The position numbers and the translations under genes were made by a program. A DNA stretch of 64,000 nucleotides from NCBI GenBank assembly GCA_913057245.1, contig CAJXNH010000013.1:1-64000 (forward strand), given 5' to 3'. Of this stretch, positions 20,489 to 26,327 are shown in pieces. How positions within the stretch are numbered: position 1 is the stretch's first letter; the number at the start of each line of letters is the position of its first letter. The stretch comes from an uncultured Phaeodactylibacter sp. (GTDB lineage Bacteria > Bacteroidota > Bacteroidia > Chitinophagales > Saprospiraceae). The notes beneath the pieces were generated by a model. It searched no databases, was not told where the DNA came from, and saw nothing but the letters and a program-made list of their open reading frames with translations.

Positions 20489-20920
20489 TTACTCGGTAGG
20501 TGCAGGACCTTCCACTTTCTTTAGAACGCGGGTATACTTGGAACGCCGGGTGGTATCAGCGGCCAGGACAAGCTCTTCGTTGGTGAGCTTGGTGATCGTG
20601 TTGGGAATTTCAGAGCCCAGGTTCATGAATAAGGTTTTGGCATCCGGGCTTATTTCCCAGGAACCGTTGAGCGTGGCACCGTTGGGGGTCGTAACGGACA
20701 TTGAGCCGTCCTCCTCAAAGATAAAGGCATCATTTTGGTACATCATCACGAAGCGTTCCAGTGCAACTTGTTCCTGAGGAGAAGGCTTGTTTTTACGGAA
20801 TTCTTCAGTCATACGGGCAGGGTCGTATTGCCATTTGCCCAATATCATCTTTTTTTCTTCATCATTGTTGCTGCAAGCCGCAAGCAAGGCGATCAACGCC
20901 ACAAAAGCAATCTTTTTCAT
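20489..20920 (-). CDS. Lipocalin-like small lipoprotein
   Basis: 143 residues. Signal and lipobox are in MKKIAFVALIALLAAC, cleavage before C16. The mature part reads ILGKWQYDPARM, then FIFEEDGSM, NGSWEISPDAKTLFM, which is the beta-barrel pattern of lipocalin-like proteins common in Bacteroidota (a GKW start and GSW/W-SPD repeat). The ligand is unknown. It is a single-gene unit in the envelope. Confidence 0.75.
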   Translation of the reverse strand: MKKIAFVALIALLAACSNNDEEKKMILGKWQYDPARMTEEFRKNKPSPQEQVALERFVMMYQNDAFIFEEDGSMSVTTPNGATLNGSWEISPDAKTLFMNLGSEIPNTITKLTNEELVLAADTTRRSKYTRVLKKVEGPAPTE

Positions 20921-22520: not shown

Positions 22521-23672
22521 TTGTCTATGATCAAAACCCTCAAAACGTTCGCGTTTCATATGCCCAGCCTTTCGGTAGGGCTCACTTTTTTCACATTGAG
22601 TATGCTTTTTGGCAGCTGGCTGGCCCGTTTGCCTGAAGTACAGGCCCGTTTGATGCTGTCTGAGGGGCAGCTTGGGCTTGCACTTTTAGGGCTTCCGGTA
22701 GGCGCGTTACTGATGATGCCGCTGGCCGGGTGGCTTTCTGCCCGGTTGAGCAGCGGGCAGGCGATGACGCTTTCCACTTTGCTTTTCTGCGGCGTATTTC
22801 CACTACCGGCTTTTGCCCAGGGGCCTTACAGCTTGTTCGCCGGACTGCTGCTCATCGGCTTTGTGAACAGCTTTATGAATATCTCCATGAATGCAGCCGC
22901 GGCGGCAGTGGAGCGCCATTACCACATCGCCATTATGTCGGTTTGCCACGGTATGTTCAGCCTTGGAGCGATGGTGGGAGCAGGCAGCTCCGGCCTCATT
23001 GCCTCTCTCGGGGTTTCCCTTCAGGTACACCTGATCACAGTTGCGCTGCTGATGGTCGGTTTGCACCTGCTGCTGCGTCCGGTCATTCATTCTCTTCCCA
23101 GTGCGCCAGCAGAGAATAACGGCCTTTCCATACCACCCCGGGCGTTGCTGGGGCTTGCCTTCATCGGCTTTTGTATTATGATTGGGGAGGGGGCAATTGC
23201 GGACTGGAGTGCGATTTTTCTCCGTAAGGAACTACAGGCGGGCCCGTTTATAGCGGGGTTAGCCTATGCCGGGTTTTCCATGGCGATGGCCATTGGCCGC
23301 TTTATGGGCGATGGTATTCGGTTGCAGCTGGGGCTGGGCAAAGCTGTTACGATGGGCAGTCTGTTAGGCGCTGCCGGGCTCCTGTTGGCTATTTTGGCAC
23401 CATTGCCATCACTGTCAGTGCTCGGTTTCACCATTGTGGGGCTCGGTTTTTCCACTGTAGTGCCCCTGCTGTTTAGCGCTGCGGCAAATACGCCGGGCGT
23501 GAGTGCAGGCAATGGAATTGCCGCGGTGGCCAGCTCTGGTGTCATTGGTTTTCTCGTCGCTCCACCCCTGATTGGATTGATCAGTGATCACTTTGGACTT
23601 GCATTGGGGCTGGGATTTGTAGTGGTACTGGCTGTTTTGGCCTCGGTAACTGCACGGGGCATAAAGGCATAG
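22521..23672 (+). CDS. Major facilitator superfamily transporter
   Basis: 383 residues with about 12 hydrophobic segments. FGSWLARLPEVQARLMLSEG near the N-terminus and the loop GWLSARLSSGQAMT fit the YbjJ/fucose-permease-like MFS group; GRFMGDGIRLQLG is the repeated cytoplasmic loop of the second half. It moves a small solute by proton or gradient coupling; the substrate is unknown. It is divergent from the AraC-type gene, which may regulate it, and a terminator lies in its leader. The TIR fusion gene converges on it, with 11 bases between stops. Confidence 0.85.
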   Translation: MSMIKTLKTFAFHMPSLSVGLTFFTLSMLFGSWLARLPEVQARLMLSEGQLGLALLGLPVGALLMMPLAGWLSARLSSGQAMTLSTLLFCGVFPLPAFAQGPYSLFAGLLLIGFVNSFMNISMNAAAAAVERHYHIAIMSVCHGMFSLGAMVGAGSSGLIASLGVSLQVHLITVALLMVGLHLLLRPVIHSLPSAPAENNGLSIPPRALLGLAFIGFCIMIGEGAIADWSAIFLRKELQAGPFIAGLAYAGFSMAMAIGRFMGDGIRLQLGLGKAVTMGSLLGAAGLLLAILAPLPSLSVLGFTIVGLGFSTVVPLLFSAAANTPGVSAGNGIAAVASSGVIGFLVAPPLIGLISDHFGLALGLGFVVVLAVLASVTARGIKA

Positions 23673-23683
23673 GTCAGCCTTTC

Positions 23684-25216
23684 CTATAAAGCATTCAGGA
23701 GAGAGGTGTCCGCCAGGGCCGCCCATTGCAGGTGCGGGTCATTGACCAGGTGTGGGTATTGCCGCTTCAGGAACTGTGTGTATAAAGCTTCACCATCCTG
23801 GGTATTCCCCTTTTCCTGGTTGCCAATACCGAAAAACTGGCGATTGTCTGCCAGGTCGCAGAGATGCACCTTATTCAGTGAAGTTTGGAAGTAATTGTTC
23901 AGGGCATCCTCCAGCGATCCGCGTATAGAGCTGGGAATGATACTCGGTAGCGGCTTGATGATGGCGTTCACGAGTACCCCCACTGCTTTTTGCGGGTAAA
24001 ATTCGTCATTGAGGAAATGATCGACTTCCCGGAACCAGCCTTTTAACAGTTCTGTGATTTCCTCCCGGTTGAGGTTGATGTATTCCTCACTGGTCAGCAG
24101 CACATCCGCGATGAGGTTGGGGTAGTCGGAAGAGTCGGTCAGGACCTGAATATCACCGCAGCCTTCCGCAATGCAGGCTTCCACGAAGGGGCTCCAGAGC
24201 ACCAGTGCATCCAGGGTATCATCTTTAATGAACCGCTTGGTAAGAAGGTCAAGGTCGGTGTGTTTCTGCGGTATGGCTTCCACCTCTCCGGGCTGAATGC
24301 CATGTTCCTGCAGCACGTACTTGAGGAAGGTGTGGGAAGGCGAGTCCTGGGGGTACAAAATGCGTTTGCCCCGAAGATCAGCCACCGTTTTAATTCGGCT
24401 CCTGGACAGAATGGCATCGGCACCGTTGGACCAGGAAGCCTGGTAGAAGACCTTGGGCGACCATTCCTTGATTTTATCGGCTACGTAGGGCAGGCGGTCT
24501 ATCGTGCACCACATCATATCAATCTGCCCGGCTTTGAAGTCATCGCAGAGCTGATCGAGATGGTCGTTCAGTTCGAAATGAACTTCGCGTTTGTACTTTT
24601 GAAAGAGTGGGGTATTTTCATTACGGGCGAAACCACCATTGTACATGATGCTGGGTATGAAGCCGATCCAGGTAGGCAGGGCAATCTGTACGGACTTGGC
24701 ATTAATGCGGGCAATATATTCCTCCAGAGACTGGGCAATGCTTTCGTAGATTTTGCCCCGGTCTTTATCGGCTTCCGGTAGTTTGTCGAATACCCTGAGG
24801 TTTTCAATATCAAAATGCTGATCGTAAATATCGTCCCAGCCATAGAGGTGATTAAGCAGAATAGGCATAATGAAGCGCTCCTCCTTGCGGTAGGCATCGC
24901 TGTCGCTAAACCTGGCGTAGGTGGTCAGTAAGTCCCGCACTTCCTCATCTACAATATCGTCGTTGACAAACTCCGGGCTGAAAAGCAGCAGCGTGATATC
25001 TGCCCGCTTGAGCTCATCCTTGAGCTGCCGATCTACGGAGCCCCCTATGTCAATGTCGGTGGCGGTCCAGATGTGTACATTCGGATAGCGGGCATTGATG
25101 CTGGTGAATTGCTTTTCCAGCTCCTCCCAGGCTTCCTGATCGGCCTTGGCGTAAAGAACGGCAATGTGGATGTTGGTGCTGCGGTCCTGCGTCTCTGGTA
25201 TCGGTTGTATGGGCAT
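23684..25216 (-). CDS. TIR domain fused to an ABC-type (SsuA/NMT1-like) substrate-binding domain
   Basis: 510 residues and no signal peptide, so cytoplasmic. Residues about 14-165 look like a bacterial TIR domain: NIHIAVLYAKADQEAW, the BB-loop-like DIDIGGSVDRQL (55-65), the strand ADITLLLFSPEFVND (72-86) and EEV (91-93), where the catalytic glutamate of NAD-cleaving TIRs would lie. Residues about 174-400 resemble periplasmic binding proteins of the nitrate/sulfonate/taurine family: VQIALPTWIGFIPSI, AGQIDMMWCTID, KTVADLRGKRILYP, LDALVLWSPFVEA. The last 110 residues are helical and unassigned. The binding domain may sense a small molecule and switch the TIR enzyme, as in other TIR defence proteins; this is inference. 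A -7 element lies 20 bases upstream. No partner gene sits beside it. Confidence 0.75.
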   Translation of the reverse strand: MPIQPIPETQDRSTNIHIAVLYAKADQEAWEELEKQFTSINARYPNVHIWTATDIDIGGSVDRQLKDELKRADITLLLFSPEFVNDDIVDEEVRDLLTTYARFSDSDAYRKEERFIMPILLNHLYGWDDIYDQHFDIENLRVFDKLPEADKDRGKIYESIAQSLEEYIARINAKSVQIALPTWIGFIPSIMYNGGFARNENTPLFQKYKREVHFELNDHLDQLCDDFKAGQIDMMWCTIDRLPYVADKIKEWSPKVFYQASWSNGADAILSRSRIKTVADLRGKRILYPQDSPSHTFLKYVLQEHGIQPGEVEAIPQKHTDLDLLTKRFIKDDTLDALVLWSPFVEACIAEGCGDIQVLTDSSDYPNLIADVLLTSEEYINLNREEITELLKGWFREVDHFLNDEFYPQKAVGVLVNAIIKPLPSIIPSSIRGSLEDALNNYFQTSLNKVHLCDLADNRQFFGIGNQEKGNTQDGEALYTQFLKRQYPHLVNDPHLQWAALADTSLLNAL

Positions 25217-25383: not shown

Positions 25384-25851
25384 TCACCTTTGATCTCGTT
25401 CTGCCCGTTCGCTCAGGATTTCGACCAGCTTGAACAAGGTCTTTTGAAACTGCAGGACCTCCGGTTCCGTGAGGCGGCTATCGTTGAAGGATCCAATGAT
25501 CGTTTTAGGGATTTCCTGAGCTTTGGCCTTTAGCTGTGCGCCGGTTTCAGTGAGTTGGACCAGTACACTGCGCTCGTCTTTAGCGGACCGCCTGCGGCTG
25601 AGGAGTGCTTTCTGCTCCAGGCGTTTGAGCAAAGGTGTAAGGGTATTGGATTCCAGGTAAAGGCGGTTGCCGATTTCATTGACGGTTTGCTCCCCGTGCT
25701 GCCAAAGGACCAGCATGACCAGGTACTGCGGGTAGGTCAGGTCAAGGGCCTTTAGCAAAGGGGCGTAAATTTTTGTCGTCATTCTGGAAGCGGCGTAGAG
25801 CGGGAAACAAAGCTGGTTCTCCAGATAAAGGGCCGCTGCAGTATCGTTCAT
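25384..25851 (-). CDS. ohrR: OhrR-type MarR-family organic hydroperoxide regulator
   Basis: 155 residues. The N-terminal block ENQLCFPLYAASRMTTKIY carries the conserved redox cysteine (C15) of OhrR. The winged helix follows: LTYPQYLVMLVLWQHG, EIGNRLYLESNTLTPLLKRL and the wing RRRSAKDERSVLV. Oxidation of C15 by organic peroxides releases the repressor from DNA (family knowledge). The gene starts 2 bases after the gpx stop, so the two form a peroxide-response operon. A different MarR subtype is possible but the cysteine context is convincing. Confidence 0.85.
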   Translation of the reverse strand: MNDTAAALYLENQLCFPLYAASRMTTKIYAPLLKALDLTYPQYLVMLVLWQHGEQTVNEIGNRLYLESNTLTPLLKRLEQKALLSRRRSAKDERSVLVQLTETGAQLKAKAQEIPKTIIGSFNDSRLTEPEVLQFQKTLFKLVEILSERAERDQR

Positions 25852-25853
25852 GG

Positions 25854-26327
25854 TTACAGCAGTTTTTTGATCGTTGACTCCATCTTTTCGGGCTTCGTGA
25901 CCGGTGCGAAACGCTTCACTGGCTTTCCGTTCTTATCAATCACAAATTTGGTGAAATTCCATTTGATTTTTTTTCCGAACAAACCCTTGAGTTCATCCTT
26001 CAGGTACTTGAAGATAGGGTGCGCCCCCTCTCCATTAACCTCAATTTTGGCAAACATGGGGAAGCTGACCCCGAAGTTGATCTCGCAGAACTCCTGAATA
26101 GCATCGGCATTTCCAGGTTCCTGATTGGCAAATTGATTGCAGGGGAAGCCCAGCACGACAAGCCCTTCGTCCCGGTACTTTTGATAGAGCTTTTCCAGCC
26201 CTTCGTACTGAGGCGTCAGGCCGCATTTGCTGGCGGTATTGACCACCACAACGGTCTTGCCTTTGTATTCTTCCATTTTGACTTTTTTGCCATTGAGCTG
26301 TTCGGCTTCAAAGTTGTAAAATTCCAT
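25854..26327 (-). CDS. Glutathione peroxidase-like thiol peroxidase
   Basis: 157 residues, typical. The peroxidatic cysteine is in NTASKCGLTPQYEGLE, the conserved glutamine region is FPCNQFANQEPG, and the tryptophan motif is KWNFTKFVID. These BtuE/Gpx-type enzymes reduce hydroperoxides, usually with thioredoxin. It is co-transcribed with the OhrR regulator. A 153-bp mobile element lies between it and the doxX gene. Confidence 0.92.
   Translation of the reverse strand: MEFYNFEAEQLNGKKVKMEEYKGKTVVVVNTASKCGLTPQYEGLEKLYQKYRDEGLVVLGFPCNQFANQEPGNADAIQEFCEINFGVSFPMFAKIEVNGEGAHPIFKYLKDELKGLFGKKIKWNFTKFVIDKNGKPVKRFAPVTKPEKMESTIKKLL

Follow-up and report, generated by a model that had tools for sequence, protein, structure and literature searches.

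A TIR domain joined to a solute-binding domain in Saprospiraceae, a candidate ligand-gated NAD+-cleaving switch

TIR domains often destroy the coenzyme NAD+, and where the trigger of a sensor–TIR protein is known, it is mostly a nucleotide signal or a phage protein. Could a TIR enzyme also be governed by a solute-binding domain of the ATP-binding cassette (ABC) type? The question is raised by a gene in a 64,000-nucleotide stretch of DNA (hereafter, the window; contig CAJXNH010000013.1, assembly GCA_913057245.1) from an uncultured Phaeodactylibacter species of the family Saprospiraceae. We confirm that the gene encodes a TIR domain joined to a complete SsuA/TauA-type solute-binding domain in one protein. 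We call the product TIR-SBP, for TIR–solute-binding protein. The gene and its parts occupy these positions:

23684..25216, minus strand: TIR-SBP fusion gene, 510 amino acids (open reading frame and translation; 34 full-length homologues)
24722..25177, minus strand: TIR domain, residues 14-165
24941..24943, minus strand: codon of E92, the predicted catalytic glutamate
23693..24697, minus strand: solute-binding domain (SsuA/TauA/NMT1 fold), residues 174-508
23906..23956, minus strand: 17-residue insert of the TIR-fused clade, residues ~421-437, a candidate coupling or assembly element

A TIR domain and a complete solute-binding domain in one protein

Pfam identifies both halves of the 510-residue protein, specifically, TIR_2 at residues 18-122 (28.2 bits) and NMT1 at residues 270-392 (37.3 bits). 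Structure prediction recovers a TIR fold and an SsuA/TauA-type (NMT1) binding fold, and sequence matches in the PDB are limited to SsuA, TauA, and a chain named nitrate transport protein. NCBIfam models of SsuA and related binding proteins match as well, every one below its own cut-off, and PADLOC gives a single weak match, to ThsB (residues 20-89, E 9e-8). Together with 49 database clusters of identical architecture, the Pfam matches and predicted folds bear out the fusion that a sequence-only reading of this DNA had proposed. That reading ended the binding fold at residue 400 and assigned the remainder to a helical tail; the fold instead extends from residue 174 to the C-terminus (508). An assembly artefact or chance fusion is ruled out by the 49 clusters and by synteny.

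The nearest relatives of the binding part (six scanned) carry an NMT1 domain followed by a C-terminal OmpA domain, and we refer to them as SBP-OmpA proteins. They have many conserved residues in common with TIR-SBP but lack the TIR domain and the 17-residue insert, and the three tested all possess an N-terminal hydrophobic segment. By contrast, hydropathy reveals no such segment in TIR-SBP, and thus no visible export signal or anchor, in keeping with the earlier claim that a signal peptide is missing. Periplasmic import was rejected as a function because no export signal was seen.

A search of 5.8 billion proteins returned the 34 full-length homologues, at 44-96% identity; a few source names indicate Phaeodactylibacter, Lewinella, and Lewinellaceae. 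With the binding part as query there were 60 matches: 42 TIR-SBPs and fragment P0052 make up the top 43, and below them rank 13 SBP-OmpA proteins and 4 solitary binding proteins. When the query was only the TIR part, 9 of 9 matches were TIR-SBPs, so that search does not reveal where the TIR domain came from. In a tree of 94 binding domains, which leaves out P0037, P0039, and P0071 as too short, the 50 TIR-fused rows (the query and the 49 clusters, with P0052 left out of tree and counts) form one branch with support of 100/100. The single branch points to one fusion, with no TIR-less member in the sample apart from P0052.

Predicted ligand gating and NAD+ cleavage

We propose that TIR-SBP is a ligand-gated NAD+-cleaving switch in the cytoplasm, with a TIR domain and a complete solute-binding domain in one chain, a proposal to which we give about even weight. 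Specifically, the binding domain, whose fold comes from the model, would close around, or release, a cytosolic small molecule. The change would travel via the helix at residues 150-172, and probably also via the insert at 421-437, altering TIR assembly. The assembled TIR domains would then cleave NAD+ with E92, as the position of this residue in the motif suggests. We infer ligand binding, NAD+ cleavage, gating direction, and oligomerization from homology and models, and on that footing a sensor coupled to a TIR enzyme, as first suggested from the sequence, is the best reading.

Conservation across the 50 TIR-SBP sequences focuses attention on the putative active site. D26, D73, S80, F83, R94, and P118 are each present in 50 of 50, D54 and E92 each in 49, and E91 in only 21. 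E92 is the glutamate expected in helix C of NAD+-cleaving TIRs, and it aligns with a glutamate of a TIR_2-type protein. The NADase-type glutamate originally sought at residues 91-92 is thus supported at E92.

Several observations weigh against an NAD+-cleaving TIR enzyme. The TIR_2 score barely exceeds the Pfam cut-off (28.2 versus 28 bits), and confidence in the TIR model is intermediate (mean pLDDT, the predicted local distance difference test score, of 71). No solved TIR was matched when the TIR part was compared with PDB sequences, either directly or via an intermediate TIR, and past its first rows the Foldseek list mixes TIRs with lumazine synthase and flavodoxin-like folds. Homologue P0049 has asparagine at the E92 position. 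Finally, the helix-C tryptophan of the WxxxE motif is absent from all 50 TIR-SBPs, in which residue 88, four before E92, is isoleucine (24), valine (23), or leucine (3). According to passages of PMC11374754, the motif tryptophan W204 of AbTir is required for NAD+ cleavage and 2'cADPR production, and the equivalent tryptophan of TcpC is dispensable for NAD+ cleavage. Given the replacement of this tryptophan in every sequence, our prediction is simple hydrolysis of NAD+, not signalling through 2'/3'cADPR.

The same divergence of the TIR sequence, including the missing tryptophan, would suit a different arrangement, in which the TIR is a non-enzymatic assembly domain and the ligand-bound binding domain lets it dock on the cell's other TIR proteins. 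Further TIR or ThsB-like matches are indeed present in these genomes. However, a pure scaffold would not obviously need E92 and D54, each of which is kept in 49 of 50 sequences, and no second TIR gene was seen beside TIR-SBP. We consider a purely scaffolding TIR unlikely.

On the sensor side of the proposed switch, the 50 TIR-SBPs and 26 bacterial SBP-OmpA proteins share, among others, T182-W183, N193, W236, T238, D240, W262-S263, D267, W341-S342-P343, and D371, residues that we assume line the ligand pocket. Some positions are fixed in bacterial SBP-OmpA yet different in TIR-SBP (S261/D, R241/A, and A266/G), so the ligand may differ. The insert separates the groups further. Between anchor columns 415 and 452, TIR-SBPs have 38 residues in 50 of 50 cases, SBP-OmpA proteins 21-22 (39/39), and solitary binding proteins 21-24 (5/5); among SBP-OmpA proteins of phages and viral contigs, 28 of 30 have 19-26, one has 31, and one, whose row is cut there, has 0. 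The inserted sequence (residues ~421-437) reads KPLPSIIPSSIRGSLED, and P422, L423, P424, I426, I427, P428, I431, and L435 are invariant in a 35-row alignment. Because the insert marks exactly the TIR-fused clade, we suggest that it may serve in coupling or assembly.

How does this arrangement compare with known systems? TIR-STING and TIR-SAVED place a small-molecule sensor and a TIR NADase in one chain. The CARF-TIR protein Cat1 does likewise and, according to the abstract of PMC12162218, is a ligand-gated TIR NADase; it is activated by the cyclic oligoadenylate of type III CRISPR, whereas neither a CRISPR nor a CBASS gene was seen beside TIR-SBP. Similarly, cyanobacterial GUN4-TIR proteins combine a metabolite-binding domain with TIR in one chain, although their tetrapyrrole sensor belongs to a separate domain family; parts of PMC7159879 suggest allosteric tetrapyrrole sensing for GUN4 fused to TIR and other domains. 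In CmpC, as sections of a review (PMC13249358) describe, a cytoplasmic domain resembling a solute-binding protein keeps the ATPase domains of the transporter blocked as long as no nitrate is bound. CmpC and NrtC thus use an SsuA-type fold in the cytoplasm to regulate an attached enzyme, but that enzyme is a transporter ATPase rather than a TIR; the CmpC regulatory domain is among the structural fold matches of the TIR-SBP binding part. By analogy, CmpC is the closest working precedent for the sensor, and Cat1 for the TIR output. We found no paper on a fusion of TIR with NMT1 or another solute-binding domain, in agreement with the initial impression that this is not a described system; most subscription literature was beyond reach, so absence is not proven. 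The main text of a TIR survey (PMC7075850), as partly available, contains no mention of NMT1, ABC transporter, periplasmic, solute, or substrate-binding.

Inheritance and genomic surroundings

Within the window's family, 10 of 398 genomes carry TIR-SBP (one copy is cut by a contig end). These comprise five of the six listed genomes of the same genus and genomes from two other genera; G264, of the same genus and 99% complete, has no TIR-SBP gene. In an order-level sample of partly overlapping genomes, 4 of 396 match across both parts, and in a phylum-wide sample the only match among 395 is the window's own genome. The genome_contigs collection holds eight loci with TIR-SBP, the nearest named one being Phaeodactylibacter xiamenensis KD52 (96%). 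A mobile or phage-borne copy was rejected: searching viral_contigs by pattern gave no relative of TIR-SBP, and no match in plasmids or phages spanned 80% of the query. The neighbours of the gene in the window are:

22521..23672, plus strand: major facilitator superfamily (MFS) transporter gene, convergent neighbour downstream (Pfam MFS_1; tblastn in L033, L035, and L037/L042; adjoins TIR-SBP in relatives at 96% and 58% identity)
25384..25851, minus strand: MarR-family regulator, upstream (Pfam MarR; also in loci L033 and L035)
25854..26327, minus strand: glutathione peroxidase-like (Gpx) gene, upstream (Pfam GSHPx; also in L033 and L035)

The order Gpx, MarR, TIR-SBP, MFS is kept in both close relatives, L033 and L035 (tblastn), and the MFS gene is likewise kept in the relative at 58% identity (L037, the same locus as L042). 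In Lewinella-type relatives, a DUF554 gene and a DUF2851 gene adjoin TIR-SBP. L034 and L037 have a common upstream gene (76% identity), presumably an elongation factor, that adjoins TIR-SBP in L034 and lies three open reading frames further in L037. Given these shared neighbours, the gene looks vertically kept within two lineages. The ratio of nonsynonymous to synonymous substitution rates (dN/dS, NG86), for the window and its two close relatives, is 0.037-0.055 for the whole gene and 0.03-0.07 for each part; the gene is under strong purifying selection.

Scans of the window's neighbours covered ten genes, with a small open reading frame at 20489-20920 outside them. PADLOC detected no specific defence gene among the ten and only weak matches, on a metallophosphatase and a MarR-type regulator. 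The idea that TIR-SBP is a defence or death switch is not borne out by these genes, the kept neighbours, or the strong purifying selection. Thoeris membership was rejected since PADLOC found no ThsA among the ten; the resemblance to Thoeris ThsB is confined to the weak profile match at residues 20-89, and the C-terminal part is unlike. A STALD search for ThsA gave 0 of 4 genomes, with no signal from any control genome either. No permease or ATPase gene occurs among the ten, and none was seen beside TIR-SBP in the open reading frame lists of relatives, which were judged mostly by eye. In this respect too, TIR-SBP, fused to a TIR and with no visible signal peptide or anchor, differs from SsuA/TauA/NrtA-type binding proteins (NMT1, PF09084).

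We also recorded genes of related types elsewhere. In one relative (genome G386), a CHAT-nSTAND1-WD40 gene lies three open reading frames from TIR-SBP (L042:6760-11004); its product is likely that of a conflict-system gene. The window's genome contains a second TIR_2 match (G000:C3:114463-114780, locus L002), in a 933-residue open frame whose sequence beyond the TIR looks repetitive. Among stand-alone TIR proteins, the nearest belong to a three-gene cluster (L049:3254-5305, L050:7052-9165, and L051:2563-4680), whose partners we take, from motifs, to be a patatin-like gene and a small membrane protein. A second TIR-like gene is close by in two of these three loci.

Relatives in importer cassettes of bacteria and huge phages

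The best bacterial SBP-OmpA matches to the binding part have ~30-35% identity. The genes beside SBP-OmpA in four bacterial loci are a permease and ATPase of the ABC type (L041, L047), one or both of two genes that match no Pfam family above its cut-off, or both sets. Two such cassette genes, of ~220-257 and 339-354 residues (L045:6907-8650, L060:3766-5750), have relatives in bacteria and huge phages; both look coiled-coil-like by eye, the second has a hydrophobic stretch, and neither reaches the cut-off of a Pfam family at L045.

An ABC-importer cassette with SBP-OmpA occurs in huge phages (L059:3352-9718, L060:3766-9524, L061:2112-9197, and L062-L088) and is related to one on Saprospirales-type chromosomes. 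Carriers are Lak phages, the 735-kb phage LR756501, Bacillus phage G, and IMG/VR contigs of up to 512 kb. With SBP-OmpA of the 735-kb phage as query, 25 of 50,697 phage records match, 20 of them over at least 80% of the query; among them are Lak phages (15), the 735-kb phage itself (two records), and phage G (two records, 28% identity). A further 27 IMG/VR contigs, viral by database label, carry SBP-OmpA, of which 7 exceed 300 kb, 11 exceed 200 kb, and the remainder are shorter. Across 30 phage and viral-contig loci, all four companion genes accompany SBP-OmpA in 21, three in 5, and two in 4.

In a rooted tree of 81 binding domains (16 of the 50 TIR-SBPs, 6 of the 13 P-numbered SBP-OmpA proteins, and 3 of the 5 solitary rows were used), the 16 TIR rows come together as one branch (100/100), nested in a clade (99/98) shared with 27 SBP-OmpA rows from phages or viral contigs and 26 from bacteria. 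The tree does not fix where in that clade the TIR branch belongs, several of the viral rows come as identical pairs, and the long branches call for a restrained reading. Three short viral contigs (L069, L071, and L083; 27-111 kb) fall among the bacterial rows and are possibly bacterial DNA.

Might TIR-SBP then be an antiphage guard, with a relative of the huge-phage importer protein as bait, such that infection shifts the level of a solute and triggers TIR-driven arrest? The position inside the 99/98 clade and the occurrence of the cassette in Lak phages, the 735-kb phage, and phage G are consistent with such a guard. So is a search of 11 genomes (ten with TIR-SBP, plus G264) with a bacterial SBP-OmpA query, in which full-length SBP-OmpA was confined to the three genomes that belong to genus g18. 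For the remaining seven of the ten TIR-SBP genomes, the sole match to the binding part was TIR-SBP itself, so TIR-SBP is not simply the partner of the cell's own such importer; however, three of the seven are incomplete (G000, 61.9%; G974, 83%; G955, 92%). The kept synteny, low dN/dS, and lack of specific defence neighbours among the genes scanned also count against a guard, as do the positions, given above, at which TIR-SBP differs from bacterial SBP-OmpA. Moreover, SBP-OmpA is common on the family's bacterial chromosomes, so the sensor need not derive from a phage. We regard a guard as doubtful. A variant, in which an anchor-less relative of the binding protein of the huge-phage importer, joined to a TIR NADase, acts as an immune sensor, would watch the cytosol for a solute that huge phages import and cut NAD+ when that solute changes; we judge it improbable. 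Very improbable is the idea that the binding fold works as an enzyme in the cytoplasm, the way it does in Thi5, MqnD, and DszB, with the TIR supplying or removing an NAD-derived compound.

If TIR-SBP is a ligand-gated NAD+-cleaving switch, its ABC-type binding domain would give a TIR enzyme direct access to the level of an ordinary metabolite, which would constitute a new class of input. Testing this class would be easy, as ABC-type binding domains are soluble and as a rule hold small ligands tightly. The outcome of the switch could be growth arrest, metabolic control, or phage defence. Finally, the kinship with the huge-phage importer cassette makes one ask what these phages take up, and whether their hosts keep watch on it.
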